DNA of 35,372 nt, from positions 1 to 35,372 of the forward strand of contig MVRL01000165.1 in assembly GCA_002067705.1 (NCBI GenBank), written 5' to 3'. The notes below the pieces were generated by a model. That model ran no database searches. It saw nothing but the letters and a program-made list of their open reading frames with translations, and had not been told where the DNA came from. The position numbers and the translations under genes are program-made. The DNA is from Methanosaeta sp. PtaU1.Bin112 (GTDB taxonomy: Archaea; Halobacteriota; Methanosarcinia; Methanotrichales; Methanotrichaceae). Of the stretch, positions 5,169-35,372 are shown piece after piece (the first letter of the stretch is position 1; each line of letters starts with the position of its first letter).

Positions 5169-6443
5169 ATGGGCAAACGAAGAAATAGAGTTTGTGGAGC
5201 CGATGTCCATAAAGATCTCATAGTTGCCACGATCCAAAGTGCCGATGGGACAGAATTCCAGGAAAAGTTTGGCACAACTTATTCTGAGCTTGAGAGATTC
5301 AGAGACTGGCTTTTAACCAATAATTGTGAGCAAGTAGCCTTCGAAGCCACTGGTGTTTACTGGTTTCCAGTCTACGATGCTCTGAGTCCGTCAATCGATA
5401 CAATTGTTGCAAATCCCTGGATGATCAAAGGCATCCCAGGGAATAAATCAGATGCTAGCGACTCTAGATGGATTGCAGAGAATTGTTTGGATGGCAAAAT
5501 TAAGAGGTCAAGAATTTTTTCCAAAGAGGATAGAAACCTCAGAACTATGACCCGTGCCAGATCAGGGTATACAAAGACCCGAACGCAACTTAGGAATAGA
5601 ATTCATAAGTATCTGGCACTTTGCGGCATAAAACTGAGTTCCTGTATCTCGGATATCTTTGGAAAATCGGGCCGGCATATTCTGGATGGACTGGTCGAAG
5701 TGAAGGAAATAGATGAGATCCTGGACAGCATACCTTCAGGAAAGGTGAAGAAAAAGCGAGACCTTATAAAAGCGGCTCTTGGGAATAGTCTTGATGACGT
5801 TTCGAGAATGCTTGTTAAGGATACTCTAGAGCTTCTGGATCACCTGGAAAAGAAGATGGAGAAAACAAGCCTGGAGATACTTAGCAGACTTCAGAAAAGA
5901 GCTAAAGACCTGGCAATAGTCATGTCGGTTCCAGGAATAGGATTCACATCAGGCTCGATCATCTTGGCAGAGATCGGTGACTATCGCGATTTCCATACCC
6001 CTGAACAACTGGCTAAATGGTGTGGTCTGGCTCCGGGACTCAACGAATCTGCAGGTAAGAAGAAACCATGCGGTATTACTAAACAGGGATCTAAGAGTCT
6101 AAGAACTGTACTTGTGGAGATAGCTCAAGTTGTTGCCAAGATGGGCAATAACAAGTTTTCAAGGTTCTTCCATAGATTGAGGACCAGAAAGAACTACAAT
6201 GTAGCAATCACTGCTTCGGCCAGAAAATTAATCACCATAATTTATCATCTGTTGATCAATCAAGAGCTATATCAAGAGAACAACTGCAATACGGCTACAT
6301 CAAAACCCGTTAAAAAGGATCTCCTCTATCTATCCAAAGAAGAGCGATTAAAGGATGGAGTAGCTGCAATCGTAGATGCCTTTTATCACTTGAAGAATAG
6401 ATATTCGGAAGGGGTGGATAGGATAGCACCCCCTAGCCATTAA
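5169..6443 (+). CDS. IS110-family DEDD transposase
   Basis: This 424-residue recombinase moves the element without a classical DDE mechanism. The N-terminal RuvC-like DEDD domain shows Asp12 (GADVHKD), Glu59 (AFEATG), and Asp95 and Asp98 (NKSDASDS). A helical linker with a Lys/Glu-rich coiled-coil stretch (about 215-250) follows. The C-terminal Tnp domain has SVPGIG at 253-258, then a CGLAPGLNESAGKK block with the likely nucleophile Ser294 and GITKQGSKSLR. The length is normal and there are no interruptions, so the copy could be active. AGGAG at 5156-5160 lies 8 nt before the ATG. That ribosome binding site directly follows the inverted repeat that closes the candidate guide RNA, so folding of the RNA may mask translation. 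Confidence 0.92.
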   Translation: MGKRRNRVCGADVHKDLIVATIQSADGTEFQEKFGTTYSELERFRDWLLTNNCEQVAFEATGVYWFPVYDALSPSIDTIVANPWMIKGIPGNKSDASDSRWIAENCLDGKIKRSRIFSKEDRNLRTMTRARSGYTKTRTQLRNRIHKYLALCGIKLSSCISDIFGKSGRHILDGLVEVKEIDEILDSIPSGKVKKKRDLIKAALGNSLDDVSRMLVKDTLELLDHLEKKMEKTSLEILSRLQKRAKDLAIVMSVPGIGFTSGSIILAEIGDYRDFHTPEQLAKWCGLAPGLNESAGKKKPCGITKQGSKSLRTVLVEIAQVVAKMGNNKFSRFFHRLRTRKNYNVAITASARKLITIIYHLLINQELYQENNCNTATSKPVKKDLLYLSKEERLKDGVAAIVDAFYHLKNRYSEGVDRIAPPSH

Positions 6444-13252: not shown

Positions 13253-15376
13253 ATGAAGGACGAATCCAATGCAAGCAGAAGCAAGCCAGAAATCCTTCCC
13301 CCATCCAACCGCCTCCTCTCCGAAAGGAGCCCCTACCTCCTCCAGCACGCCCACAACCCTGTGGACTGGTACCCCTGGGGCGAGGAGGCCTTTGCCATAG
13401 CCCAAAAGGAGGACAGGCCCGTCTTCCTCTCCATCGGCTACTCCACCTGCCACTGGTGCCATGTCATGGCCCATGAGTCCTTCGAGGACGCCGATGTTGC
13501 CGCCCTATTAAACCGGGCCTTCATCTGCATAAAGGTTGACCGGGAGGAGAGGCCGGACATCGACCAGATCTACATGGGCTTTGCTCAAGCCATGACCGGC
13601 AGGGGCGGCTGGCCTCTTACTATTATCATGACCGCCGATAAGAAGCCCTTCTTTGCCGCCACCTACATTCCTAAAACCGGGCTGCACGGCCAGGCAGGAA
13701 TGATGCAGATCATACCGAAAGTCCAGGAACTGTGGGAGAAAAACAGAGAGCAGCTTCTGGATTCAGCAGATAAGATCATCGATTTTATCCGGGGGCAGAG
13801 CCGGCCACCCGCCGGGGCGGATGCGGCGAGTCTGGACGAGACCGCCCTCGACCGGGGGTACGAGGCCCTCTCCTCAATCTACGATCCCCAGAACGGCGGC
13901 TTTGGCACCGCACCCAAGTTTCCCTCGCCGCACAACCTCTTCTTCCTCCTGCGCTACTGGAAAAGAACTGGAGATACTCATGCTCTGCAGATGGTCGAGG
14001 AGACGCTTCAGGCCATGCGCCAGGGCGGAATCTACGATCATGTGGGATTCGGATTTCACAGGTACTCCACAGACGCCCGGTGGCTTGTCCCCCACTTCGA
14101 GAAGATGCTCTACGACCAGGCCCTGATGGCCATTGCCTACACCGAATGCTTCCAGGCCACAGGAAAAAAGGAGTACGGGAGAACGGCAGGCGAAATCCTG
14201 GATTACGTGCTCCGGGACATGACCGCGACCCAGGGAGCCTTCTTCTCGGCAGAGGATGCCGACAGCGAGGGCGAGGAGGGCAAATTCTACCTCTGGACTG
14301 CCCAGGAGCTGAAGGAAAGCCTGGACAGCGAGGAGTTCAGGCTCCTGATCCGGATCTTCGATGTCTACGAGAGCGGAAACTTCGAGAAGGAAAGAAACAT
14401 CCTCCGCTTGAGATCATCGCTGGAGGATGCGGCTGCCGTCCTGAAGATAAGCCTGCCCGATCTTTCCGCCCGGATGGAAAGGCTGAGGAGCAGGCTATTT
14501 CTTGCCAGGGAGAAGAGAGTGCATCCTCTGAAGGACGACAAGATTCTCACCGACTGGAATGGATTGATGATCGCCGCCCTGGCGAGAGCTGCCCAGGCCA
14601 TGCCCGGGGCAAAAGGGGCGGAATACGGGAGAGCAGCAATAAAGGCCGCCGATTTTATCCTGCAGGAGATGATGACCGCCGATGGCCGGCTGCTGCACCG
14701 CTACAGAAATGGGGCAGGCATTGCTGGCAATTTGGATGATTACGCCTTCCTGATCTGGGGCTTGCTCGATCTCTACGAGACGGTCTTTGATGCCAGGTAT
14801 CTGAAGAGTGCTCTAAAGCTAAATGATGCCATGCTGGAGCATTTCTGGGACAGGGATCAGGGCGGCCTGTTCTTTTCTGCTGACGATGCCGAGGGCCTTC
14901 TGCTGCGCAAAAAAGAGTATTATGACGGAGCAATTCCATCCGGAAATTCCATCGCCATGCATAACCTTCTGCGGCTTATGCACCTATCCGGAAGGACGGA
15001 ACTGGAAGAGAAGGCCTGGGAGCTGGCACGCGGCTGGGCCAGGACATCCGGCCAGATCATGGGCGCAAGCATGCTCCTCTGCTCTCTGGACTATGCTCTC
15101 GGGCCGGCCTCAGAAGTAGCTCTGCTGGGAAGCATTGAGGACGTGAGGATAGCGGAAATGCTCCGGGCCATGAGATCTCATTTCCTGCCCAACAAATCCA
15201 CAATGCTGGTGAACGGAGAAGAGATCAGAGAGATTGTGCCGTTCACCCGCAGTCTGCCCCTGGATGGAGAGACTACCGCTGCCTACGTATGCACCGATCA
15301 TGTCTGCAGCCTTCCGGTGCCAGGACCAAAGGAGTTGATGATGCTTCTCTCCGGCGATTCGCGTAAAACGCACTGA
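13253..15376 (+). CDS. YyaL / SSP411-type thioredoxin-domain protein
   Basis: This 707-residue protein matches the conserved YyaL (DUF255) family, related to human SPATA20. An N-terminal thioredoxin-like domain (about 18-180) opens with [21 protein letters not shown]-like sequence and has a CHWC redox motif at Cys66 and Cys69, followed by DREERPDID and GRGGWPLT. The rest is an alpha/alpha-barrel resembling N-acylglucosamine 2-epimerases, with [15 protein letters not shown] and the [10 protein letters not shown] block typical of the family. The cellular role is unknown. A cytoplasmic location is likely, as there is no signal peptide. Length and motifs are complete. The ribosome binding site is weak. 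GC content is higher than in the surrounding secreted-protein genes. Confidence 0.93.
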
Positions 15377-15669
15377 GACCTATTCATCGAGAGGGAAATA
15401 TAACGATCTTTAACGAGACTGCAATTCCAGCAGATAGCGATAGTCTTGGCAGAGGGGCTAGAGCCAGAGATGATGAGAGCCAGTGGTCGACAACAATAAA
15501 TACTACCAGCTAGCTGTATGCCAGCAGAGGAGATCCAAATTTCTGAGAAAGAAATGGCATCCGATTCCGATGGGCACCGTAGTCTAAATAAATACCGTAG
15601 GGTATCCTACGCAAAAAAAGCAGCAAACAGATCTATTTTCTCACGCGCAGGTTATGCGGTGATGTTTTA
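15377..15669 (+). promoter_or_regulatory. Upstream region of the ATP-grasp operon
   Basis: No gene is visible in these 293 bp. CGTAGG (15596-15601) and CCTACG (15606-15611) form a small hairpin about 60 bp before the operon start, next to an A7 run. GGTGATG (about 15658-15664) is the ribosome binding site of the first gene. A TAAATAAATA segment at 15585-15594 is the best TATA candidate. Confidence 0.35.
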
Positions 15670-16323
15670 ATGAACAAACGACGAGAACATGTTCCTAAAA
15701 AAGACATCATGTATACTTTAAAGGAAGATGACTCCCAATATATTGTTAATGAGAGTTACTTTTACAAGACGCAGCCGTACTATACCATCGTCAAGAGCGA
15801 AAACGATGGCATAAAGACCACGCCCAGCAGCAGCGATGTGCTGGATGCCTATATCGTTCCCATCTGCCTGGAGAAGGCAAAGCTGGCTGGAATACCGGTC
15901 TGCGACTGGATCATATCCAACCAGTACGTCTCTCTGCCGGCCATAGTCTACGGTTTGAATTACTTCTCCACACCATCCGACCACTTCCTGATCAGGGAGC
16001 TAGAGGAAGCAAAAAGGGTGATCAAGCATGTCACCAATCACGGCAGGTACCCCTTCTGCTACCAGAAGATAGGCGAGACCACAACAGTCGGCAAATGCGT
16101 TTCCATCTTCGGCAAGACCATCAATTGCTGTGAGATGGCCAGGTCGCTCGCAGAGAAGATCTATGAGGTCTTCCGGCTGCCTCTCGTGGAAGTTGTGCTG
16201 GTCAAGGATGAATCCGGCTGTCGGCTATCTTCCCTGGCTCCGGTCAAATATTCGCATTTATCAAAGGATGAAACGGAAATGTTACAGGACCTTCTGAATA
16301 AGAGGGTGAGACGCTTTGAGTAA
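15670..16323 (+). CDS. RimK-associated N-terminal domain (RLAN-type) protein
   Basis: This 217-residue protein resembles the domain often found fused to, or encoded just before, RimK-like ATP-grasp ligases. Visible blocks are ESYFYKTQPYYTIVKSENDG (28-47), VPICLEKAKLAGIP and DWIISNQYVSLPAIVYGLNYFS. Its exact activity is unknown. It may supply substrate or partner specificity to the ligase encoded next to it. The second half (GRYPFCYQKIGET, CVSIFGKTINCCEMA) contains four Cys that could bind metal. It is the first gene of a four-gene operon and its 3' end overlaps the ATP-grasp start by 8 bp. The family call is from recalled sequence pattern and context. Confidence 0.65.
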   Translation: MNKRREHVPKKDIMYTLKEDDSQYIVNESYFYKTQPYYTIVKSENDGIKTTPSSSDVLDAYIVPICLEKAKLAGIPVCDWIISNQYVSLPAIVYGLNYFSTPSDHFLIRELEEAKRVIKHVTNHGRYPFCYQKIGETTTVGKCVSIFGKTINCCEMARSLAEKIYEVFRLPLVEVVLVKDESGCRLSSLAPVKYSHLSKDETEMLQDLLNKRVRRFE

Positions 16324-17335
16324 ATTAGGCATCTTCGTCAATAGACAGACCTTAAGTAGCTCTGAACAGCTCACGGCCGTGGTTAAATGCCGGGACGTGG
16401 CTGAGAGCCTTGGCCACACAGCTGAGTTCATCTTCCCGGTGGACATCAAAAAGATTCCCAAACTGGACGCGCTCTTCATCCGCGCCAACACCGATCCCAT
16501 GAACATCACCTATGTGGCGTCCAGAATGGCGGAAATGTACGGAATACCGGTAATAGACGACCCAAGCTCAATCCGGATCTGTGCCGACAAGATCAACATG
16601 TACATGCACCTGATGAAGAAGAACATCTCCATGCCCAGAACCAGGTTCCTGAAGAAGAAAGAGCTGGATGAAAGCTCAGCCGCTCAGCTCTTCGAAGAGC
16701 TGGGCACGCCACTGGTGCTGAAGGAGCCATCCACATCATTCTCAGTCCGGGTGGAAAAGGTCTCATCCTCTGACGAGCTATTGAAGGTCGCAAAGAGATT
16801 CTTCAAGCTCTCAGACTGGATTGTGGTGCAGGAGTACATCGAGAGCAGGTTTGACTGGAGAGTCGGAGTCATAAACGGACAGCTGCTCTATGCCTGCCGC
16901 TATATCATCCCCTCAGAGACCTTCAAGATCCAGGCCTCGGTGAACGGACATATCGTCTACTGCGATGTGGAGAGCGTTCCTGCCGATCAGGTTCCCCCGG
17001 AGGTCATAAAGCTGGGGCGGGAAGCAGGAAACGCCATTGGCAATGGACTATATGGTGTGGACATCAAAGAAAGCAACGGGAAGCTCTATGTCATTGAGGT
17101 CAATGATAATCCCTCTCTGGAAGGAGGGGAGGATGCCCATTATCCGGATATGTTCCATAAGATCATCTCCTACCTGATGACTGGAGACGCATGCAGCTAT
17201 GCTGGAGATCTCTCAGAGAAGGCATTGGGTCCTCATGGATTCGAAGGCGAGTACGGCCTGGGAGCTGCCGCTGGCATCTGCAGCCAATCCGCCCTGGAAG
17301 AAAAGGCGGCATACTCCTACAAGATCGACTTCTAG
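16316..17335 (+). CDS. RimK-like ATP-grasp ligase
   Basis: This 339-residue enzyme should join an amino acid or amine to a carboxylate through an acyl-phosphate, using ATP and Mg. The start is TTG at 16316 with GAGGGTGAG 7 nt upstream; it overlaps the previous stop. ATP-grasp landmarks are Lys92 (CADKINMYMHLMKK), then PRTRF, Lys136 in PLVLKEPSTSFSVRV, QEYIESRFDWRVGVING (172-188), Asp249 in GLYGVDIKE, and Glu261/Asn263 in VIEVNDNPSLEGG for metal binding. The KEPSTSFS loop differs from the Gly-rich loop of E. coli RimK and is typical of the subgroup paired with RLAN domains. Substrates are unknown. The neighbouring GCS2-type ligase suggests a peptide-like or glutamyl product. Confidence 0.88.
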   Translation: MSKLGIFVNRQTLSSSEQLTAVVKCRDVAESLGHTAEFIFPVDIKKIPKLDALFIRANTDPMNITYVASRMAEMYGIPVIDDPSSIRICADKINMYMHLMKKNISMPRTRFLKKKELDESSAAQLFEELGTPLVLKEPSTSFSVRVEKVSSSDELLKVAKRFFKLSDWIVVQEYIESRFDWRVGVINGQLLYACRYIIPSETFKIQASVNGHIVYCDVESVPADQVPPEVIKLGREAGNAIGNGLYGVDIKESNGKLYVIEVNDNPSLEGGEDAHYPDMFHKIISYLMTGDACSYAGDLSEKALGPHGFEGEYGLGAAAGICSQSALEEKAAYSYKIDF

Positions 17336-17352
17336 ATAGGGATGATAAATCA

Positions 17353-17853
17353 ATGGAAGATTACCTTTGTGAAGCCTTGAGCCGGGCCTGCAGCAATTGC
17401 CATCTGGACGGAGGCTGCTGCTTCGAAGCGCGTCCCCCCCTGAGCCAGGAGAGAATCGACATTCTTATGAAAAATGGCGTCCCTGAGAGTGCTGTAGAGT
17501 TTGTCGGATACAAGAGGCTCCGCCTGAAGAAGGATGGATTTTGCGTCCTCTTCCAGGACGGAAGATGCAGCATCCACTCCATCAAGCCCGAGACCTGCGT
17601 CGCCGGACCCTTTACCTTTGACATAAAAGATAACGTCCTGCAGATATTCATCAAAAGAGAGAGCATCTGTCCGATGGTCCGATTCCTCAGGGCTGATAAA
17701 AAAGCCTACGACGGGCTTTTCGAGACGGCGGTCGAGAAAATCATTCATCTGATCAAGGCCATACCCGCGGCAGAGATGGCAGAGATCCTTAAGATCGAGG
17801 AGCCGGAGACGGATCTAGTAGCAGAGATACCGCTCTCCGATAAAAGGCGATGA
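17353..17853 (+). CDS. YkgJ-type cysteine-cluster protein
   Basis: This 166-residue protein has the Cys arrangement of the YkgJ / CxxCxxCC family, predicted to bind Zn or an Fe-S cluster. Cys13, Cys16, Cys22 and Cys23 lie in RACSNCHLDGGCC, then come Cys64, Cys72 (GFCVLFQDGRCSIHSIKPETC) and Cys82. The pattern C-x(7)-C-x(9)-C around SIHSIKPETC is typical. The start at 17353 has AGGGATGAT upstream. A longer upstream frame exists, but it overlaps the ATP-grasp gene and lacks its own site. It sits between the two ligase genes and overlaps the next start (ATGA), so it probably belongs to the same pathway, perhaps as a redox or modifying enzyme. Confidence 0.8.
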   Translation: MEDYLCEALSRACSNCHLDGGCCFEARPPLSQERIDILMKNGVPESAVEFVGYKRLRLKKDGFCVLFQDGRCSIHSIKPETCVAGPFTFDIKDNVLQIFIKRESICPMVRFLRADKKAYDGLFETAVEKIIHLIKAIPAAEMAEILKIEEPETDLVAEIPLSDKRR

Positions 17854-19013
17854 CAAAAGCAATTCACAGGGCTCTGAGCGCTGCATCTCCCGTAGGAACG
17901 GAGCACGAGTACTCCATAAATGACAAGAATTGCAGGCCTTTGCCCATCTCCGACCGGATAATCGAGAGAATCGCCGGACGGCTGGATCATGAGGTGCATT
18001 TCGGCGGGATACTGGTCTCCAAGGAGCTTCAGAAGCATGCCATTGAGCTGATCCCCAAGAGGCCAGGAAGCCTGAGTTTTTTGGAGAGCAACCTCTACCA
18101 GGGCCTCCGCGAGCTTTACCGGGCCACCAATTACGAGTATGGATTTATGGGCCTGGGAATGCATCCGCTCCTCAAACTAAATGAGACAACCTACTGGGAT
18201 CACGATGAGCAGGAGTACTATCAGGCATACGACCGGCTTTTCAATATCAAGCAGCACGGCTGGCTGAATATCCAGGCTCTGCAGATCAACATCCCTTACT
18301 CTGACAATGAGGAGCTGCTCGCCATGCATAGCAAGATCCGCTCGCTTATGCCCTATCTGGTCGCAGTCTCCGCCTCCTCGCCGATGGTAGAGGGAAAGCT
18401 CACCACATACATGGATAACCGACTGGTCTATTATCGGGAAAATCAGGCTGCCATCCCCGAGATCTGTCATGACATACTGCCTGAAAAGCTGCATAGCGTG
18501 GACGATTATGTGAGGATCAACCGCCAGATCTACAGCGAGCTGAAGAGATGCAATGCTGAGATTCTCTGCCGGGAGTGGGTCAACTCTCGAGGTGTGATCG
18601 TCCGCTTCACCAGAAAATGCCTGGAGGTCAAAGCCATCGATGAGCAGGAGTGCCTTCATTCTGACATGGCGTTCTCGGCATTTTTGCTCGCCCTGTTGCG
18701 CTCTGAGATCTCGCTGGAAGAGGAGGAGAGCGCTCTTCAAGAGACTCTGGAAGAAGCCATGCGGCACGGAGTTGCCGGAATGCGACCTGAGCTGGAGAAG
18801 CTCTTCGCCGCCGCCGAGAAGAGCGCAACTGCTGAAGAGAAGCGGTATCTTCCCCTGATTGCAAAGCGCATTGAGCAGGGAAGCCTCGCAGAGATCATTG
18901 TGCAAAAGCTAAAGAGCGAGACTAACGGCAGGATCGAGCCGATAATGCGGCATATGCAATGGTGCCTGAAGGAAAATAGACCGTATTCTGCCGAGCCGGG
19001 AAGATGCGGATAG
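17850..19013 (+). CDS. GCS2-type carboxylate-amine ligase
   Basis: This 387-residue protein belongs to the glutamate-cysteine-ligase family 2 group, a glutamine-synthetase-like amidoligase fold. The opening PVGTEHEYSI puts Glu18 and Glu20 at the metal site, as in the family's G-x-E-x-E motif. HEVHFGG (52-58) is followed by a helix carrying a further acidic residue (ELQKHAIELIPKRP), and MGLGMHPLL carries the usual His. A buried LQALQINIPYS strand and the conserved RFTRKCLEVKAIDEQEC block follow. It would form an amide or peptide bond with ATP. Together with the ATP-grasp enzyme, two successive ligations are implied. It starts inside the previous stop (ATGA overlap), so translation is coupled. 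It ends the operon at a bidirectional hairpin. Confidence 0.8.
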   Translation: MTKAIHRALSAASPVGTEHEYSINDKNCRPLPISDRIIERIAGRLDHEVHFGGILVSKELQKHAIELIPKRPGSLSFLESNLYQGLRELYRATNYEYGFMGLGMHPLLKLNETTYWDHDEQEYYQAYDRLFNIKQHGWLNIQALQINIPYSDNEELLAMHSKIRSLMPYLVAVSASSPMVEGKLTTYMDNRLVYYRENQAAIPEICHDILPEKLHSVDDYVRINRQIYSELKRCNAEILCREWVNSRGVIVRFTRKCLEVKAIDEQECLHSDMAFSAFLLALLRSEISLEEEESALQETLEEAMRHGVAGMRPELEKLFAAAEKSATAEEKRYLPLIAKRIEQGSLAEIIVQKLKSETNGRIEPIMRHMQWCLKENRPYSAEPGRCG

Positions 19014-20801: not shown

Positions 20802-23156
20802 ATGACGAGAGGTAATGATCTGGCGCTGGGAATGAAGGTGCTAATAGTAGACGATGAGATCGATATGCCCACCGCAGAAGGTAGGGCTGTGCGCGCCCTG
20901 GTGGATGAGATTAAAAAGGAAGCTGCCACGGTGATAAAATCATGCTCTGCAGACGATGGCAGGTCGGTAATTCTCTCCGATCCCTCAATCCAATGCATTC
21001 TCATGGATTGGAGTCTTTCCGACGATGATCCCACCCATGACAAAGCCAGAGAGCTCCTCAAGCTGATACGCACCAGAAATAGCCTCATGCCTGTCTTTCT
21101 CATGTCCGACAGCGAAAAGGCGCCGCTGATCAATGCCGAGGTTATGAGCCTGGTGGACGAGTTGGTCTGGGTCTTGGAAGACACCCCCACGTTCATTGCC
21201 GGGCGAGCACTGGCGGCCATGAATCGATATCGTGAGCAGATCGAGCCGCCCTTTACCAAAGCCCTCATGGACTTTGCAAAGGTCTCCGAATACTCCTGGC
21301 ATACCCCAGGCCATGCGGGCGGAACGGCTTTCCTCAAGTCGCCCGTAGGCAGAGCCTTCTTCCAGTATTTTGGCGAAAACCTTCTTCGGTCCGATCTCTC
21401 CATATCTGTGGGAGAGCTTGGCTCTCTCTTGGACCACTCCGGCCCGATCGGCGAGAGTGAAAAATATGCTGCCCAGATCTTTGGAGCGGATCGATCTTAC
21501 ACCGTAACCAACGGCACCTCTGCCTCAAACCGCATTGTTTTCATGGCAAGCGTCACCCGCGGCGATCACGTTCTGGTTGACAGAAACTGCCACAAATCCA
21601 TTGAGCAGGCATTGATTATGACCGGTGCGATTCCTGCCTATATGAAGACCTCACGAAATTACCTGGGATTGATTGGCCCCATCTATCCTGAGAACATCGG
21701 CAAAGAAGCAGTCTTGCAATCTATTCTCGCCCATAACCTGTCTGTTTCACCCGAAAACGATGAAAAAGAGGACCATTCTGATGCTCTTGATACTGCAAGT
21801 GCGAAGCACAAGCGGCCTGCACATGCCATTATCACCAACTCCACCTATGACGGCCTCTGCTACAATGTAAAGCGAGTCCTGGAGATATTGGGCGATAGCG
21901 TCGATCGCATCCATTTTGATGAGGCATGGTACGGCTATGCCAGATTCAACCCGCTCTATAAAGAACGATACGGCATGTTTGAGAAGAGCAGACATGATGA
22001 TGGCCCCACGGTATTTACTACTACCTCGACCCATAAGCTGCTCGCTGCCCTCTCCCAGGCATCCTTCATTCATGTCCGCGACGGCAAAAAGGCCATCCCT
22101 CACGACCGGTTCAACGAATCGTTTATGATGCATTCCTCTACATCGCCCCAATACGCCATTATTGCCTCAAATGAGGTCTCTGCAGCCATGATGTCCGGAG
22201 AGAGCGGACCGGCTCTGACCAGAGAATCGATAGATGAAGCCATTGCATTCCGCCAGAGCATGCGCAAGATATGTAAGGAGGCTCAGGAGAATGGAGAGTG
22301 GTTCTTCGACGTCTGGAATGCTGACAAGATCAAAGGGGTGGACTTCGAGAGAGTATCGCCCAAAACGCTGGCCGAGGATCCTGATTGCTGGGTGCTGCAT
22401 ACCAAAGACAGGTGGCATGGCTTTTCCAATATGGAGGAGGGCTACTGTATGCTCGACCCCATCAAGGTCTCTGTGGTAACACCTGGGGTTGAGAGGGACG
22501 AAACTCTCAGGAAGGATGGAGAGGTCAGGATACCGGCGATGCTGGTCACATCTTACCTGGACAACCGGGGCATAGTGGTGGAAAAGACGACGGACTTTAC
22601 AATTCTCTTCCTCTTCTCGATGGGAATCACCAAAGGCAAATGGGGAACTCTGGTCAATGCTCTATTGAGGTTTAGAGATGACTATAACAAGAACACTCTG
22701 CTAAAAGAAGTTCTGCCAGACAAGGTGCTGCTGGACCCGGACCACTATCAGAATATGGGACTGATGGATCTGGCAGAGGAGATGTTCATTAAGTTAAAGG
22801 AACTGAAGCTGATGGACCTTCAGAAGGAAATTTATGCATCAAAATTGCCCAGGCAGGACAAAACGCCAAACCAGGCTTATCAGAAGTTTGTGCACGGCCG
22901 CGCCGAGCTTCTGCCATTGAGGGAGACCGCCAATCGAACCGTAGCTACGGGAATAATCCCCTATCCTCCGGGCATTCCCATGCTGCTCTCGGGAGAGAAT
23001 ATCGGACAGGCCAGCGGCCCCCATCTCAAGTACCTCTGCGCTCTGCAGAAATGGGATATGCATTTCTGGGGCTTTGGCCATGATATTCACGGAGTGGAAA
23101 TTAAAGATGGGAAGTACTATATCCATTGCCTTAAGGAAATTGTCATGGATGTGTAG
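20802..23156 (+). CDS. Orn/Lys/Arg decarboxylase-family PLP enzyme with receiver-like domain
   Basis: This 784-residue protein has the layout of bacterial inducible Lys/Arg/Orn decarboxylases. An N-terminal CheY-like wing domain (about 12-145) is followed by the PLP aspartate-aminotransferase-fold core, with SEYSWHTPGHAGG (162-174), DRNCHKSIEQ (260-269), NSTYDG, Asp373 in HFDEAWYGYA, and Schiff-base Lys412 in TSTHKLLAALSQAS, and then the C-terminal domain ending in YPPGIPMLLSGE. The wing domain keeps a receiver-like acidic pocket (VDDE at 16-19, Asp69 in ILMDWS) and Lys106. The amino acid decarboxylated cannot be assigned; arginine for polyamine synthesis is plausible. A GTGAT motif lies 7 nt before the ATG. 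Residue 11 is an alternative start. A paralogue follows 1.1 kb downstream. Confidence 0.88.
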   Translation: MTRGNDLALGMKVLIVDDEIDMPTAEGRAVRALVDEIKKEAATVIKSCSADDGRSVILSDPSIQCILMDWSLSDDDPTHDKARELLKLIRTRNSLMPVFLMSDSEKAPLINAEVMSLVDELVWVLEDTPTFIAGRALAAMNRYREQIEPPFTKALMDFAKVSEYSWHTPGHAGGTAFLKSPVGRAFFQYFGENLLRSDLSISVGELGSLLDHSGPIGESEKYAAQIFGADRSYTVTNGTSASNRIVFMASVTRGDHVLVDRNCHKSIEQALIMTGAIPAYMKTSRNYLGLIGPIYPENIGKEAVLQSILAHNLSVSPENDEKEDHSDALDTASAKHKRPAHAIITNSTYDGLCYNVKRVLEILGDSVDRIHFDEAWYGYARFNPLYKERYGMFEKSRHDDGPTVFTTTSTHKLLAALSQASFIHVRDGKKAIPHDRFNESFMMHSSTSPQYAIIASNEVSAAMMSGESGPALTRESIDEAIAFRQSMRKICKEAQENGEWFFDVWNADKIKGVDFERVSPKTLAEDPDCWVLHTKDRWHGFSNMEEGYCMLDPIKVSVVTPGVERDETLRKDGEVRIPAMLVTSYLDNRGIVVEKTTDFTILFLFSMGITKGKWGTLVNALLRFRDDYNKNTLLKEVLPDKVLLDPDHYQNMGLMDLAEEMFIKLKELKLMDLQKEIYASKLPRQDKTPNQAYQKFVHGRAELLPLRETANRTVATGIIPYPPGIPMLLSGENIGQASGPHLKYLCALQKWDMHFWGFGHDIHGVEIKDGKYYIHCLKEIVMDV

Positions 23157-24236: not shown

Positions 24237-26762
24237 ATGCCGCATAAGCTCTCTATATTGATCATCTCCGCTAAGAAGGAGGATGGAAAATCGGCCACAA
24301 TTCTGGCCATGAGCCGACTTGAGGAAGCAATAAAGAGCCTTGGTTACCCGACCGTCCTGGCGAACACGGCAAGCGACGGAAAAGGCCTGGTCAGCTCCTA
24401 TCACGGGTTTGGGTGCATCATACTGGATGCGGATATTCCGAGCGAAGAAGAGCTGAGACGGCGGGCAGAGCTGCAGGCAGCACTGAGAGCCGGGCAGGCC
24501 AACGCCGCCGATGCCGTGAGAGCCGTAAACGCAGTGGACATCATCCAGGCCATCCGGTCGATGGACAAAAAGGTTCCCATATTCCTGACGGCAGACAGGA
24601 CAGAGCTCAGGGATATTCCTCTGGAGATAATAAGCGAGGTCCATGAGTACATTTATCCTCTCCAGGACACTGCGGACTTCATAGCCGGAAGGGTGGACTT
24701 TGCCACGAGGCGCTATTACGAACAGCTGCTTCCCCCATACTTCGGGGAGCTGAAGAAGTTCACTGAAGACGCCGCATACAGCTGGGATGCGCCCGGCCAT
24801 ATGGGAGGGGTGGCCTATCTCAAGCATCCGGTGGGCATGCAGTTTCATCAATTCTTCGGCGAGAACATTATGCGGGCTGACATAGGGATCTCCACCGCCC
24901 AGATGGGGGACTGGCTGGAGCACATCGGCCCATCGAATGAGTCGGAGTGCAATGCCGCCCGCATCTTTGGAGCCGACTGGACCTTTTATGTTCTGGGAGG
25001 GTCATCGGCCTCAAACCGGATAGTCTGCCAGGGAGCGATAGGCGCTGAGGAGATGGTTGTGGCGGACAGAAACTGCCACAAGTCGCTCAACCACGGCCTG
25101 ACCCTCAGCCGGGCGAGAGCGGTTTACCTCAAGCCGACCCGCAACAGCTACGGGATGATAGGCCCGATTCAGAGGAAATGCTTTGAGCCGCAGCATATTA
25201 AGGAGCTGATCGACAAGAGCGAACTCAAGAAAGGAGCCGTTTCGCCCGATCCAACATACGGAGTGGTTACCAACTGCACCTATGACGGTTTCTGCTATGA
25301 TGTCAATTCTGTGGTGGACCTGCTCTCCATGAGCGTGGACCGGATTCATTTCGATGAGGCCTGGTATGCTTATGCGAAGTTTCATCCAGTCTATGCTGGC
25401 CGGTTTGCCATGGGATTGGACCGGGAGCTGGACAGGACCACCATCTTTGCAGTGCAGTCGACTCACAAGATGCTGCCTGCCTTTTCGATGGCCTCCATGA
25501 TTCACATCAAAGTCAACAAGGTAAAGCCGAATCTGGAAAAGGACCAGTTTAATGAGGCATTCATGATGCACGGCACCACATCGCCTTTCTATCCCATGAT
25601 TGCCTCTATTGATGTGGCAACCTCCATGATGGATGACCCTGCCGGTCGCACCATGATGGACGAGACTATTGAAGATGCCATCGGCCTGCGAAAAGCGATC
25701 GCCTCTGTTGGCAAGCGCATCAGGGAGAGCGATGAGAAAAATAAATGGTTCTTCGGCTGCTACCAGCCCGACAAAGTTGTCGATCCGAAGAAGCCCAATG
25801 AGCCCATCGATTTCGAGGATGCGCCTGACAGCCTGCTGGCCAATGAGCCGTCTTGCTGGACCCTCAAGGAGAGCGACACCTGGCACGGCTTCCAGAGGGA
25901 GGACCTGTCCGGGGATAACTACTGCATGCTGGATCCAACGAAGGTTACCATCCTCTGTCCGGGCATAAATGCCAGGGGAGAGATGGATGGCCACTTTGGC
26001 ATTCCTGGGACTATTCTGACCCACTTCCTGGACTCTCGCAGAATTGAGATCGCCCGGACAGGAGACTACACAGTGCTGGTGCTCTTCTCGGTGGGAACGA
26101 GCAAAGGCAAGTGGGGAACCCTTCTGGAGGCGCTGCTCGAGTTCAAGCGCCTTTACGACAGCGGTGCCAGCGTGGCTGAGGTTCTTCCGGAGCTAGCCGA
26201 GAAATACCCGGAGGAGTACGGCAGAGACGCCAATGGCCAACCGAAGATCTCCCTGAAAGAGCTCTGCCAGAATATGCACTCCTGGATGAAAGAGAATAAT
26301 CTGCCCAAGCATCTCAACGATGCCTGCAATGTCATTCCCCCCGCCAGGTACTCATCTGCAGAGACCTACCAGAAGCTGATCCGGGACCAGACTGAGAGGG
26401 TCAGGATCTCTGAAATTGCCAGGCAGAAAGATCGGATTGCCGGGCATATGCTCGTGCCCTATCCACCGGGAATACCAATCCTGATGCCGGGAGAGGTCCT
26501 GGAAAAAGGCAATCCTCAGATAAAATTCCTGCTGAAGCTGGAGAAGTTCAATGGCAAGTTCCCGGGTTTCGAGAGAGAGATTCACGGCGTAGAGATCGAC
26601 GAGAATGGCAACTTCTGCATGCGAGTGGTCAAGAGTGACCTGGGCGAGAAGGAAGAAGAGACTGAGGAGATGAGGCTCAAGCAAGGAGAAGCCGCTCCGG
26701 CCTTCAAGCCGGCGATCAGGCGGCGCGTCATGTCCAGGGCAGTGAAGAGAGGTCGATCGTAA
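24237..26762 (+). CDS. Second Orn/Lys/Arg decarboxylase-family PLP enzyme
   Basis: This 841-residue paralogue of the enzyme encoded at 20802 has the same domain order. Core landmarks are YSWDAPGHMGG (181-191), DRNCHKSLNHG (277-287), NCTYDGFCYD, Asp373 in HFDEAWYAYA and Schiff-base Lys411 in QSTHKMLPAFSMAS. It differs from the first copy in the wing domain. The receiver acidic pair is lost (IISAKKED), Asp64 remains (IILDAD), and a 30-residue Ala/Arg-rich helix is inserted (about 70-98). It also has an extra basic and acidic C-terminal tail of about 40 residues (GEKEEETEEM, then RRRVMSRAVKRGRS). Arginine or lysine decarboxylation is inferred only from the family. AAGGTGAAGGA precedes the ATG. 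Confidence 0.88.
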   Translation: MPHKLSILIISAKKEDGKSATILAMSRLEEAIKSLGYPTVLANTASDGKGLVSSYHGFGCIILDADIPSEEELRRRAELQAALRAGQANAADAVRAVNAVDIIQAIRSMDKKVPIFLTADRTELRDIPLEIISEVHEYIYPLQDTADFIAGRVDFATRRYYEQLLPPYFGELKKFTEDAAYSWDAPGHMGGVAYLKHPVGMQFHQFFGENIMRADIGISTAQMGDWLEHIGPSNESECNAARIFGADWTFYVLGGSSASNRIVCQGAIGAEEMVVADRNCHKSLNHGLTLSRARAVYLKPTRNSYGMIGPIQRKCFEPQHIKELIDKSELKKGAVSPDPTYGVVTNCTYDGFCYDVNSVVDLLSMSVDRIHFDEAWYAYAKFHPVYAGRFAMGLDRELDRTTIFAVQSTHKMLPAFSMASMIHIKVNKVKPNLEKDQFNEAFMMHGTTSPFYPMIASIDVATSMMDDPAGRTMMDETIEDAIGLRKAIASVGKRIRESDEKNKWFFGCYQPDKVVDPKKPNEPIDFEDAPDSLLANEPSCWTLKESDTWHGFQREDLSGDNYCMLDPTKVTILCPGINARGEMDGHFGIPGTILTHFLDSRRIEIARTGDYTVLVLFSVGTSKGKWGTLLEALLEFKRLYDSGASVAEVLPELAEKYPEEYGRDANGQPKISLKELCQNMHSWMKENNLPKHLNDACNVIPPARYSSAETYQKLIRDQTERVRISEIARQKDRIAGHMLVPYPPGIPILMPGEVLEKGNPQIKFLLKLEKFNGKFPGFEREIHGVEIDENGNFCMRVVKSDLGEKEEETEEMRLKQGEAAPAFKPAIRRRVMSRAVKRGRS

Positions 26763-27474: not shown

Positions 27475-29256
27475 CTATTCACAAGCTATTTTAAAAAAAT
27501 GCCGAATCATGGAAACCAAACCGGAAAGCATGCCGCCATCCTTATCAAATGACCAATCCTTTCCAACCTTCACATCGGTCAGGCAGGGAATCACCTTCAA
27601 TATCTCATTTCCCGCTTCCTCCATCACGCTGCTCAGCAGCCGAGAAGCTTCTTTTTTCCGCTTATCCGGAACCTCCAGGAGAATGCTGTCATGAACCGCA
27701 TTAATTAGCCGGAAATCGCTGTACTGGGGCGACGCAATCTTTTCGTAGAGCCTTCCCAGAGCAATCTTTTGCAGATCTGCACCCGTCGCCTGCACAGGAG
27801 TGTTGATCATGGCATTTCTATGCCTGGGATCAACATGCCTAATTCGACCCAATGCCGATCTGGAAATTTTGTATGCCTGCCCATCGACTTCCACTTCCCT
27901 GGCGCCGTCTGTGACCATGCGCTGCCAGCGCTGCAAATCCGGATAGGCATCATAAAAACGGTGCAGGAATTCCCTAGCCTGTTCTTCGCTCAGGCTGGGC
28001 AGATTGCTGAGAATCATATTTGCTCCCCCGCCGTAAATCGTGCCGTAATTCAGGGTCTTGGCAATCTGCCTCTCTTCATCCGAGACCTTTTTCTTTTGAA
28101 AGATGACCTGGGCTGTCTGGCGGTGAGGATCAAGACCATTCTTGAAGATCCTTTGCATGGCTTTATCGCCGGAGAGAACAGCGATGATCCTCATCTCAAT
28201 GGCCGAGAAGTCAGCCTCCACAAAGACCATTCCCTTTGAGGCGACAAAGAGCTTTTTGAGTAGCGGGTCTCTTGGAACCTGCTGAATATTGGGCCGGGAA
28301 CAGGTGATGCGGCCGCTTCTGCCGCCAAGCTGCGTCAGCCTGGGATAGATGCGATTCTCTCTGGCACAGTCTATCCAATTTTTCAGAAAACCGATCTTCT
28401 GCCTCAGCTCTCTGTACCTCAGAATCGATTTTACGAAAAGCTCTTTGGGATGCTCGGATAGTATTCTTTCCAGATCAGCAGCCGATGTGCTCTTCAGACC
28501 GTACCCACGGCTCTGCAGCAGCCTTTTCACGTGAACAGGATTGCGGGGATTGAATCCTCTGAATTTCGCCCCCTTTGCATGCTGCTCAAGCTCTCTTTCC
28601 AGCCGGTCTTTCTCATCTATCAGGCTCTCTAAAAGCCGCCTGCCTCTCTCACCGTCAAAGCCTATGCCGCTATATTCAATCTCCACTAATGCAGGCAGCG
28701 CTTGAAACTCAATTCGGGCTATGTCTTCCATGCGGTTCATCCTGATAAGAGACATCTGTTTGGCCTGAATACTCTCCAGGACTGCGCAGACTCTGGAGGC
28801 ATAATCCATCTCTCTGGCCGAGGGATTGCTGCTTTTGCCTGAAGCTCTGCCCGATGCCTCAGGGCTGTCGCCAAAATGCCACCCCAACAGGTCCCTGCAA
28901 ATCGATTGCAGAGACGATTCCTTGCTGCAAAGGCCATTGTCGAGAAGCTGTGAGGCCAGCCGGGTATCCCAGAGATTTGTGAGCTGAAGTCTCCTGCCGA
29001 TCTCATTTCTGATAATTCCGAGATCGAAAAGCAGATCGTGGCCCACAACCCGACAGGATGGGCACTCCAGAAGAGGGACGATCTCTGGGAGCAAATTGGG
29101 AGCCAGCAGAGCCTGGCCGTAGTCACCGGCAATGGAGATAAACCTGAGATGAGATGCACAGGGCATAAAACCACCGTCAGTTCTCAAATGCAGAAAGATG
29201 GTGGAGGGCTCATTTCTCGGCTCGCAGGACCAGGAAGAGAGAAGCGCTTTGACCAC
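27475..29256 (-). CDS. CRISPR-linked family A DNA polymerase with dead exonuclease domain
   Basis: This 593-residue protein has the Klenow layout: an exonuclease-like domain (about 15-165), then thumb, palm and fingers. The polymerase motifs are intact: motif A Asp349 in VEADFSAIEMR, motif B Arg396-Lys400-Tyr404 in ERQIAKTLNYGTIYGG, and motif C Asp523 in NAVHDSILLEV, although Ser524 replaces the usual Glu. In the exonuclease domain motif I is lost (LHLRTDGG in place of a D-x-E), motif III lacks Asp (YASRV), and only Asp78 of motif II remains, so proofreading should be absent. There is no 5' nuclease domain. The start is GTG with GAGGAGGT 9 nt upstream. Family A polymerases are uncommon in archaea. 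The divergent arrangement with cas4-cas1 suggests gap filling or end processing during spacer acquisition. Confidence 0.88.
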   Translation of the reverse strand: MVKALLSSWSCEPRNEPSTIFLHLRTDGGFMPCASHLRFISIAGDYGQALLAPNLLPEIVPLLECPSCRVVGHDLLFDLGIIRNEIGRRLQLTNLWDTRLASQLLDNGLCSKESSLQSICRDLLGWHFGDSPEASGRASGKSSNPSAREMDYASRVCAVLESIQAKQMSLIRMNRMEDIARIEFQALPALVEIEYSGIGFDGERGRRLLESLIDEKDRLERELEQHAKGAKFRGFNPRNPVHVKRLLQSRGYGLKSTSAADLERILSEHPKELFVKSILRYRELRQKIGFLKNWIDCARENRIYPRLTQLGGRSGRITCSRPNIQQVPRDPLLKKLFVASKGMVFVEADFSAIEMRIIAVLSGDKAMQRIFKNGLDPHRQTAQVIFQKKKVSDEERQIAKTLNYGTIYGGGANMILSNLPSLSEEQAREFLHRFYDAYPDLQRWQRMVTDGAREVEVDGQAYKISRSALGRIRHVDPRHRNAMINTPVQATGADLQKIALGRLYEKIASPQYSDFRLINAVHDSILLEVPDKRKKEASRLLSSVMEEAGNEILKVIPCLTDVKVGKDWSFDKDGGMLSGLVSMIRHFFKIACE

Positions 29257-29337: not shown

Positions 29338-31134
29338 GTGATGGAGAATTCTGGATCAAAGGCAGATGTACCGGACCTAATCCCGGCTCGCATGCTCAGC
29401 GAATTCGCATACTGCCCGCGGCTCTGCTACATTGAGTGGATAGATGGGGAGTTTTCAGACAATGAGGATACTGTGGAGGGCAGATTTGCGCATCGCCGGG
29501 TGGACGCAAAGGAAGATGACATTGCCAGAGACGGAATCGAGAACGAGAATGAAAAGGAGAACGAAAAAGAGAATGGAAAAGAGACGGAAACGGGGAGAGA
29601 AGCTTTTCACGCCCGAAGCCTGTTTCTCAGCGGCCCGAAGGCTGGCATCACCTGCCGGATAGATCTCCTGGAAGGGGATGGCGAGAGGGTAACGCCCATA
29701 GAATACAAGAGGGGAAAAGCGCCCGGCATTCCCGAGGGTGCATACGAGCCGGACCGCGTCCAGCTCTGCGCCCAGGGGCTGGTGCTCAGGGAGAACGGCT
29801 TCAGATGCGATGGCGGAATCGTTTACTTTGTCCGCTCGAAGAAACGGGTTGCGGTTGACTTTGATAAAGCTCTGATTCGCAGGACCAACGATCTTATCGC
29901 CGATCTGAGGACGGCAGCAGAAAAGCGGGAGATTCCCCAGCCATTGCAGGATAGCCCCAAGTGCAATCGATGCTCGTTAGCGGGCATCTGCCTTCCCGAT
30001 GAGGTAAATCTGCTCAGAGAGACAGATTCAAATGAAGCTGCTGAGAGAGGATTTCTGGCAAGGATCAGAAAGCTCATCCCGTCTAGGGACGACACCATGC
30101 CGGTATACGTCCTGGGGCACGGAAATACGGTTCGCAAAAAGGGCGATCTACTGGAAATATGGTCCCGCGGTGATGATGATGAGAAGACAGGCAAGGAAGG
30201 CAAATCAAAGCAGGTCAGGCTGAGAGAGATCTCCCAGGTCAATCTCTTTGGAGGAGTTGATGTCTCTATGCCTGCTCTGGTCGAGCTTATGCAGCGAGGC
30301 ATTCCGGTCCTGCATTTTACAAGAGGAGGATGGTTTCAGGGATTGAGCTGCGGGCATACCCACAAGAATGTGCAGCTGCGCATGCGGCAGTTCTCCTGGG
30401 CCGAGGATAAAAAGAAATCCCTATCCATTGCCCGATCTGTAATCTACGGCAAGATCAGAAACTGCCGGACTCAGGTTCGCAGGAATGACGATAAAACCGA
30501 AGAAAAAGCCGACGGCAAATCCGCTAAAGATGCTTTGGACAGGCTGGAGCGGCTTTCCAGGGATGCAAGAAATGCGTCCAGCATCGAAAAGCTACTGGGA
30601 ATTGAAGGTGCAGCCGCGGAGGTTTACTTTGGCCGTCTGGGCCAGATGCTAAAAGCCGATCAGGGTTTCTCCTTTGAAAACAGGAACCGAAGGCCGCCCA
30701 AAGACCCGGTTAACGCAGTTCTCTCTTACCTTTACGCGGTTCTTGCCAAAGACGTTTTCGTCTCTCTTCTCGCGGTGGGATTTGATCCGTATCTCGGTTT
30801 CTACCACCGGCCCCGCTATGGCCGCCCGGCATTGGCGCTGGACATGATGGAGGAGTTCCGGCCCACTATTGCTGATGCCACTGCCATCACTCTATTCAAT
30901 AAAGGCGAGCTATCGGAAAGGGATTTCATCAATACCGGAATAGGAGTATCTCTTACATCCAAAGGAAAGAAAACGGTCATAGCAGGCTACGAAAGACGAA
31001 TGGAATCGGAGATCACTCATCCGCTATTTGGCTATTCTGTCAGCTACCGGAGGATACTGGAAGTGCAGGCGCGGCTATTGTCCAGAGTCATTTCCGGCGA
31101 GATCAAGGAATACCCCGCATTTTACAGGAAGTGA
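29338..31134 (+). CDS. cas4-cas1: Cas4-Cas1 fusion protein
   Basis: This 598-residue protein is two adaptation enzymes in one chain. Cas4 (about 12-225) is a RecB-like PAM-selecting nuclease: Cys26 in FAYCPRLCYIEW, His52 in GRFAHRRVD, Asp109 in CRIDLLEG, Glu122-x-Lys124 in IEYKRG, and the Fe-S cysteines Cys209, Cys212 and Cys218. Cas1 (about 253-598) is the integrase: Glu423 in GIEGAAAEVYF, His490 in LGFYHRPRYGRP, and Asp502 with Glu505 in LDMMEEFRP. An acidic Glu/Asn-rich insertion (about 57-89) lies in the Cas4 part. Such fusions are typical of type I-G (former I-U) and V-B loci, but the type cannot be fixed without effector genes. cas2 follows 6 nt later. Confidence 0.95.
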   Translation: MMENSGSKADVPDLIPARMLSEFAYCPRLCYIEWIDGEFSDNEDTVEGRFAHRRVDAKEDDIARDGIENENEKENEKENGKETETGREAFHARSLFLSGPKAGITCRIDLLEGDGERVTPIEYKRGKAPGIPEGAYEPDRVQLCAQGLVLRENGFRCDGGIVYFVRSKKRVAVDFDKALIRRTNDLIADLRTAAEKREIPQPLQDSPKCNRCSLAGICLPDEVNLLRETDSNEAAERGFLARIRKLIPSRDDTMPVYVLGHGNTVRKKGDLLEIWSRGDDDEKTGKEGKSKQVRLREISQVNLFGGVDVSMPALVELMQRGIPVLHFTRGGWFQGLSCGHTHKNVQLRMRQFSWAEDKKKSLSIARSVIYGKIRNCRTQVRRNDDKTEEKADGKSAKDALDRLERLSRDARNASSIEKLLGIEGAAAEVYFGRLGQMLKADQGFSFENRNRRPPKDPVNAVLSYLYAVLAKDVFVSLLAVGFDPYLGFYHRPRYGRPALALDMMEEFRPTIADATAITLFNKGELSERDFINTGIGVSLTSKGKKTVIAGYERRMESEITHPLFGYSVSYRRILEVQARLLSRVISGEIKEYPAFYRK

Positions 31135-31140
31135 TTCAAT

Positions 31141-31443
31141 TTGAGCGGAAGGAACTGCTATGTTGTAAGCTACGACATCATGGACCAGAGACGATTGCAG
31201 AAAGTGCACAAGATCATGAAAGGCTTCGGAGAGGCTATCCACTATTCGGTTTTCCGATGCGATCTTACCGGCAAAGGTCGAGTGGAGATGATAGCAGCAC
31301 TTACAGATCTTATCAAGCACGACCAAGACAGGATCATGATATTGGATCTTGGACCTACGGACGGCAAAGTGGATCAGAGGATAGAATTTCTCGGCGTCCA
31401 TGCCAAAGATCCGGACTCCCCCCGAAGGGCAGTCATCATTTAA
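31141..31443 (+). CDS. cas2: Cas2, CRISPR adaptation subunit
   Basis: This 100-residue Cas2 dimer would bridge two Cas1 dimers in the integration complex. The start is TTG at 31141, with GGAAGTGATT overlapping the end of cas4-cas1, so translation is coupled. The first strand ends in YVVSYDI with the conserved Asp12. HKIMKGFGEAIHYSVFRCDL and IMILDLGP follow, in the usual ferredoxin-like order. Length is normal (about 90-110). No interference genes follow. The next 418 bp hold the leader of the large array. Confidence 0.92.
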   Translation: MSGRNCYVVSYDIMDQRRLQKVHKIMKGFGEAIHYSVFRCDLTGKGRVEMIAALTDLIKHDQDRIMILDLGPTDGKVDQRIEFLGVHAKDPDSPRRAVII

Positions 31444-31629
31444 GGACGCAAGGATATTGATGGCGGCTGAAGGCATTCGGCACTTTTTTCGCGTAAACGC
31501 AAAGAAAATCAGAAGATATGATAAAGCTTCGATTCAATAGAAGCCAACGCTTTGAAGACAATAGCGATGGGGAAAGTTTAGATAGTAGTAATGCCATCAT
31601 GTTGTTCGCACAAGATCTGGCGAGCAAAC

Positions 31630-31650: not shown

Positions 31651-31861
31651 GGGCCAGACGGACGGACTTGATGGGACACAGAATGTCCCAGTTTCGCGCA
31701 TCGAGGTGGTGTCCAATTTCCCAGGAGATGCGCGAAAGGTCTGTGCATATCGAAAATTGCAGATTACAAACATTAACTTTTTGAAAGTATTCTAATAAGT
31801 TAACAACATGCGCGAAAACCGCCTTTTTTTCGATATCAGCGAAGGTCGAAAAATGGCCGCC
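31651..31861 (+). promoter_or_regulatory. CRISPR leader 2 (main array)
   Basis: This 211-bp leader is homologous to leader 1. It has the same order with different motif sequence: hairpin TGGGACA-cagaa-TGTCCCA (31672-31690), copy A TTTCGCGCATC (31692-31702), copy B GATGCGCGAAA (31727-31737, perfect inverted repeat of A), GCATATCGAAAATTGC, and copy C ATGCGCGAAA (31808-31817), 80 bp after B. Copy C ends 44 bp before the first repeat, as in leader 1. The last 44 bp include TTTTTTTCGATATC and TCGAAAAA in inverted relation. Confidence 0.85.
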
Positions 31862-34800: not shown

Positions 34801-35324
34801 CTGAAAAGTCGTGGCTCAATTGAAACCTTTCGGGAAGTTCCACCATGTATCCTTCCTCTGTTTGTCTCCATGACTGAAAAGTCGTGGCTCAATTGAAACA
34901 GGGCCGCGAAGACGTGGGCACCATCTCAGGCACTTGGGTCTCCATGACTGAAAAGTCGTGGCTCAATTGAAACAGGTCGGCAAAGGACAGGTGGCAATGC
35001 CGCCAAGCCGTCTCCATGACTGAAAAGTCGTGGCTCAATTGAAACATTACCCGGTCCAGGCCGTCTAAGAGCTGGCTCATGTCTCCATGACTGAAAAGTC
35101 GTGGCTCAATTGAAACTTGGCGTGCTGACACTGACCCGATATAGCAGGCGCGGTCTCCATGACTGAAAAGTCGTGGCTCAATTGAAACAGGCCATGTATG
35201 CCCGGCGTTTCCGGGCAGCTATCTCGTCTCCATGACTGAAAAGTCGTGGCTCAATTGAAACTGCGAATCCCAAAGCAACTGTTCTTTTTCTTGATGAAGT
35301 CTCCATGACTGAAAAGTCGTGGCT
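31862..35324 (+). CRISPR. Main CRISPR array: 48 repeats, 47 spacers
   Basis: I count 48 copies of a 36-bp repeat beginning GTCTCCATGACTGAAAAG and ending GTGGCTCAATTGAAAC, with 47 spacers of 35-43 bp. All full repeats read as identical except the one at 33252, which has C to T at 33257. The last copy (35299-35324) is cut after 26 bp, marking the leader-distal end. CATGACT-GAAA-AGTCGTG forms a 7-bp hairpin with a GNRA-type loop, and the 3' end ATTGAAAC would be the crRNA handle after Cas6-type cleavage. The leader and cas4-cas1/cas2 are on the left. Minus-strand frames across the array are translations of the repeat and not genes. The last 48 bp of the window show nothing. Confidence 0.98.
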
Positions 35325-35372
35325 TCACATACCAACCAACTATAACCGCCAAGTATCCAAGCCTGCCCCGGC

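Follow-up and report, generated by a model that had tools for sequence, protein, structure and literature searches.

A nested RLAN, ATP-grasp, cysteine-cluster and GCS2 operon in Methanosaeta and related archaea: a predicted route to a small peptide-like metabolite

What does an archaeal operon with two different kinds of amide-bond-forming ligase make, and in which order would its proteins act? This question was raised by four consecutive forward-strand genes in a 35,372-nt stretch of Methanosaeta sp. PtaU1.Bin112 (contig MVRL01000165.1), here called the window. They encode an RLAN-domain protein (15670..16323, 217 residues, ATG start), a RimK-like ATP-grasp ligase (16316..17335, 339 residues, TTG start; gene GRASP), a CxxCxxCC (YkgJ-type) cysteine-cluster protein (17353..17853, 166 residues; gene CXXC) and a GCS2 / YbdK-like carboxylate-amine ligase (17850..19013, 387 residues). 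All four proteins scored above the Pfam gathering cut-offs: 34.2 bits against 25 for PF14401 (RLAN), 48.0 against 21 for PF08443 (GRASP), 35.3 against 23 for PF03692 (CxxCxxCC) and 139.3 against 21 for PF04107 (GCS2). The analysis pointed to an operon dedicated to a small, probably anionic, peptide-like metabolite, with GRASP and RLAN acting before GCS2 and the cysteine protein. The probability of this predicted product is put at about 0.55.

Gene order and nested distribution

RLAN and GRASP overlapped by 8 bp, a 17-bp gap separated GRASP from CXXC, and CXXC and GCS2 shared an ATGA overlap. These coordinates and spacings were exactly those of a first-pass annotation, whose four domain names and operon claim were also borne out by the family scores, the recurrent gene order, the overlaps and the selection on the genes. 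From the overlaps, the four genes appear to form one translational unit. The order RLAN-GRASP-CXXC-GCS2 was found in all 20 Methanotrichales regions retrieved, as well as in the majority of the 80 loci of a scan of named genomes. Relatives in that scan belonged to Methanothrix/Methanotrichaceae, Methanoregula, Methanolinea, other Methanomicrobiales, Methanomassiliicoccales, Candidatus Methanoperedens and Archaeoglobaceae. Methanotrichaceae and Methanomicrobiales shared the four-gene order. The pairs RLAN-GRASP and GCS2-CXXC were present but rearranged in Archaeoglobaceae, and Methanomassiliicoccales retained GRASP, frequently at another genomic site. The RLAN-GRASP gap was at most 1 bp in 64/64 adjacent pairs, which mostly overlapped (median −8), and the CXXC-GCS2 spacing was at most 30 bp in 62 of the 65 pairs (median −4). 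The ratio of non-synonymous to synonymous substitution rates was 0.04–0.17 for the four genes, so all of them are under purifying selection. Both RLAN and GRASP were split in two frames in Methanoregula sp. SKADARSKE-2, as pseudogenes or through sequencing errors.

The GCS2 gene was present in 39 of 50 genomes of the order Methanotrichales. Among 393 Halobacteriota genomes, GRASP occurred in 58, GCS2 in 52 and CXXC in 49. GRASP was found in 51 of the 52 GCS2 genomes, the sole exception being 73% complete, and GCS2 in all 49 CXXC genomes. GRASP occurred without GCS2 in 7 genomes and without CXXC in 9. The co-occurrence gave a Fisher p below 1e-52, a value that ignores shared ancestry; the nesting recurred in several families. 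Because presence is nested, GCS2 seems to depend on GRASP and not the reverse. The ATP-grasp step would probably come first, with GCS2 and the cysteine protein building on it. The stepwise synthesis proposed in the first-pass annotation was thus supported, since GCS2 almost never occurs without the ATP-grasp gene, which often occurs without GCS2.

The operon was absent from all listed genomes of a second family, taken as Methanosarcinaceae, and from one Methanotrichaceae genus. The system is not confined to methanogens, as the genes also occurred in Archaeoglobaceae, and Legionella carried a bacterial version. The operon is carried by widespread methane-producing archaea and by Archaeoglobus. 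Its nested distribution suggests in which order the steps occur, and carriers of the operon can be set directly against organisms that lack it. The host genome (3.4 Mb, 99% complete) contained one GCS2 gene, one RLAN gene, two RimK-type matches and nine CxxCxxCC matches. Its nearest named relatives were Methanothrix metagenome-assembled genomes, with a GCS2 identity of 87%.

The two ligases and their partner proteins

The residues K92, K136, R182, D249, E261 and N263 of GRASP were invariant in essentially all of 84 sequences. Judged by these positions, GRASP retains the catalytic residues of ATP-grasp enzymes and its signature is intact. Its closest solved relatives were RimK structures (5zct/4iwx), with ArgX (3vpb) lower down. 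RimK is the ribosomal protein S6 glutamate ligase. GRASP has the ATP-grasp fold and catalytic residues in common with RimK, LysX/ArgX, MptN and CofF, but it fell below every NCBIfam cut-off: 91 of 143 bits for rimK_fam, 72 of 350 for MptN, 39 of 300 for CofF and 74 of 276 for LysX. A separate MptN-like gene (324 bits) was present elsewhere in the host genome. To our knowledge, none of these four known types has a GCS2 partner or RLAN, and the N-acetylglutaminylglutamine synthetase (Ngg) system is without RLAN, GCS2 and the CxxCxxCC protein.

The AlphaFold model of RLAN had a mean predicted local distance difference test score (pLDDT) of 87.9 and a predicted template modelling score (pTM) of 0.83. 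A Foldseek search of the PDB with this model matched ArgX, LysX and RimK at E values of 1e-9 to 1e-7, with TM-scores up to 0.63. Almost all of the 50 best PDB matches listed were ATP-grasp enzymes (best E 1.4e-9), and the predicted topology was that of the ATP-grasp fold. No lysine and no ExN motif was found among the 27 columns that were at least 90% conserved in 79 sequences. RLAN was therefore read as a degenerate ATP-grasp domain, and the model suggests that it is probably catalytically dead. The sequence search gave no significant solved structure for RLAN. The stand-alone protein matched the fused bacterial RLAN domain by profile comparison (E 1.4e-6). The RLAN name given in the first-pass annotation stood; instead of an unrelated helper, a dead ATP-grasp fold is predicted. 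RLAN has hitherto been listed only as an N-terminal domain, for which a degenerate ATP-grasp fold is now suggested.

The GhExE signature of GCS2 proteins (described in PMC2588565) was present as a near-invariant GTEHE. The GCS2 model matched the YbdK-type structure 1tt4 and the plant glutamate-cysteine ligase 2gwc at E values of 1e-15 to 1e-14, and also 1r8g. The earlier reading of two unrelated amide-bond-forming folds, ATP-grasp and GCS2, was supported. GCS2 has the fold and the signature in common with YbdK/GshA-type ligases, but its identity to solved members was about 13–16%, its score was 46 of 176 bits for TIGR02050 (the YbdK subfamily) and lower for all other curated models, and its gene is tied to RLAN-GRASP. 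No viral relatives of GCS2 were found. None of the operon proteins reached the cut-off of a characterized equivalog.

The CxxCxxCC protein contained eight cysteines and a C-terminal IxEPxT motif, 92–100% conserved in 79 sequences; the cysteines, E150, P151 and T153 reached 99–100%. The motif was found in none of the eight other CxxCxxCC paralogues of the host genome. A LysW-type carrier is small and acidic, binds zinc and has a modified glutamate at its end. The protein of the operon differs from it in its 166 residues, its eight cysteines and its internal EPxT, which lies about 13 residues before the end. The sequence search gave no significant solved structure for it.

Operons of RLAN/RimK-type ATP-grasp peptide ligases were reportedly predicted by Iyer et al. 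in 2009 (Mol Biosyst 5:1636), with GCS2, GNAT-peptidase, M20 peptidase and metal-cluster genes as partners, so an operon of this kind would already have been predicted then. The prediction is cited in PMC4431377. As in those operons, RLAN adjoins a RimK-like ATP-grasp ligase in the window, in overlapping genes that both exceed the Pfam cut-offs, and the linked partners are GCS2 and the metal-cluster-type CxxCxxCC protein. Unlike them, RLAN and the ATP-grasp ligase are separate genes here, the four-gene core includes a distinct type of CxxCxxCC protein, and a GNAT-peptidase (GNAT-C39) is absent from the locus. Both the GNAT-C39 variant and the GCS2 variant were found in bacteria. No product of the operon or of the RLAN-RimK family was found in the literature searched, consistent with the first-pass annotation, and no paper on the RLAN domain was found there. 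The new elements are the predicted degenerate fold of RLAN, the nesting, the adjacency of a citrate/arsenite-type transporter in two lineages, the IxEPxT motif of the cysteine protein and an operator-like repeat upstream.

Proposed pathway and alternatives

In the proposed pathway, GRASP would activate a carboxylate with ATP to an acyl-phosphate and couple it to an amine. RLAN would be the non-catalytic partner of GRASP, possibly in a complex, much as in bacteria, which have both as one fused protein. GCS2 would take the GRASP product and form another amide bond, for which the gamma-carboxyl of glutamate is the likeliest group. The CxxCxxCC protein may assist GCS2 in the role of a metal or redox partner or of a carrier. 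In some lineages, a permease beside the genes would probably transport the product or a substrate.

The neighbouring genes bear on the nature of the product. Five Archaeoglobaceae loci had a CitMHS/ArsB-type permease gene 0–12 bp before GCS2 and on its strand; in three Methanomicrobiales loci such a gene came 10–70 bp after GRASP or GCS2. The Legionella operon had RLAN and RimK fused in one gene, with GCS2 next and an N-formylglutamate amidohydrolase-like gene after it, and no CxxCxxCC gene. Legionella was the only bacterium with a GCS2 partner in the plasmid collection. A GNAT-peptidase C39 gene preceded RLAN-RimK in Azospirillum, and a RimI-like GNAT gene stood beside the RLAN-GRASP pair, facing it, in a Methanoperedens-type genome. 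Taken together, the permease, amidohydrolase-like and GNAT neighbours speak for a small compound that is carboxylated and in some cases acylated. A metabolite is favoured over a protein tag as the product.

Several points weigh against the proposed pathway. No homology between RLAN and GRASP was detected when their sequence profiles were compared, and the relation of RLAN to ATP-grasp enzymes rests on predicted structure. The transporter is absent beside the operon in most genomes, including the host. Linked RimK-like ligases are able to act on proteins too. The first step could also differ where GCS2 is absent.

Protein modification, with both ligases acting on the CxxCxxCC protein near IxEPxT to give a LysW-like carrier or a tagged protein, was considered unlikely. 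It would explain why CXXC always occurs with GCS2 (49/49) and why IxEPxT is almost as conserved as the cysteines and missing from the eight paralogues; moreover, RLAN is structurally closest to ArgX and LysX, whose substrate is the zinc protein LysW, and the GCS2 fold is common to the Pup ligase PafA. However, nine genomes with GRASP and the Legionella operon lack the supposed target, and IxEPxT is not C-terminal in the manner of LysW and may serve an ordinary structural role. A more specific form, in which an RLAN-GRASP heterodimer of a dead and a live subunit would extend the IxEPxT glutamate on a metal-cluster carrier, followed by GCS2, is decidedly doubtful; it would constitute an amino-acid carrier system of methanogens and Archaeoglobus unrelated to LysW. 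Synthesis of a glutathione-like thiol, with GCS2 making gamma-glutamylcysteine and GRASP adding a third residue, was judged quite unlikely. GCS2 has YbdK and GshA among its relatives, a thioredoxin-domain gene lies upstream in Methanotrichaceae, and PMC7278568 lists the GshA-family matches of methanogens, Archaeoglobi and Thermoplasmata among possible makers of gamma-glutamylcysteine. These matches probably include GCS2 of the operon. However, the score of GCS2 is far below the YbdK cut-off and all GshA models, the seven genomes with GRASP and without GCS2 show the opposite of the required order, and an early survey, as cited in PMC7278568, reported neither glutathione nor gamma-glutamylcysteine in five methanogens. 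The name glutamate-cysteine ligase is unwarranted for archaeal GCS2 genes without a test.

Glutamate tailing of coenzyme F420 or tetrahydrosarcinapterin, or addition of the extra methanofuran glutamates, was regarded as very improbable. The RimK-like ATP-grasp enzymes MptN and CofF perform such tailing, and no ligase has been assigned to the additional glutamates of methanofuran (PMC8141765). Against this stand the scores of GRASP far below the MptN, CofF and LysX cut-offs, the separate MptN-like gene of the host, the absence of the operon from the presumed Methanosarcinaceae and one Methanotrichaceae genus, and its presence in Archaeoglobaceae, Methanomassiliicoccales and partly Legionella. 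This distribution makes F420 and methanofuran, the acceptors suggested in the first-pass annotation, unlikely. The operon was ruled out as an enzyme set for glutathione, F420, tetrahydrosarcinapterin or methanofuran by cut-offs and distribution. That the genes are functionally unrelated and have stayed adjacent through chance or slow rearrangement is effectively refuted: the lineage-limited DsbH gene shows that synteny alone can persist within a family, but the four genes remain linked across families in which their flanks differ, and their presence is nested at the level of single genomes.

Upstream elements and other features of the window

A direct repeat, ACCGTAG-N11-ACCGTAG, was found upstream of RLAN (15576..15600, forward strand). 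It was kept in most of 12 aligned Methanotrichaceae sequences; the first copy reads ATGGTAG in one sequence. The perfect repeat occurred exactly once per genome, only upstream of the operon, in six genomes. The repeat is operator-like and is a putative operator. RNAalifold, applied to 11 upstream sequences, gave a candidate hairpin over the ribosome-binding GGTGA of RLAN (15641..15662, forward strand). Its pairs were mostly invariant with almost no covariation, so the hairpin is suggestive only. No known RNA element reached the gathering threshold in the window.

The DUF255/DsbH thioredoxin-domain gene (13253..15376, forward strand, PF03190) is the syntenic neighbour upstream. It adjoins the operon in Methanotrichaceae only and was ruled out as a fifth operon gene by this confinement and by the long gap (median 338 bp). 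It is probably a separate transcription unit. Clustering of all neighbours gave no fifth gene common to most lineages. A 690-residue acyl-CoA-synthetase-like protein, named by eye, was encoded near GCS2 in about 29 loci of the Methanoregula group, including the named Methanoregula loci, and was confined to that group.

The window also contained an IS110-family transposase gene (5169-6443) and two neighbouring Orn/Lys/Arg decarboxylase genes (20802-23156 and 24237-26762). A family-A DNA polymerase gene with a 3'-5' exonuclease domain (27475-29256, reverse strand), unusual for an archaeon, lay beside the CRISPR genes. These comprised a Cas4-Cas1 fusion (29338-31134; NF049935, 725 bits) and a 109-residue open reading frame (31131-31460) that occupies the Cas2 position and matched no Pfam family. 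The CRISPR array (31860-35372) reached the end of the window, with about 47 copies of the 36-37-nt repeat GTCTCCATGACTGAAAAGTCGTGGCTCAATTGAAAC at a spacing of about 73 nt.

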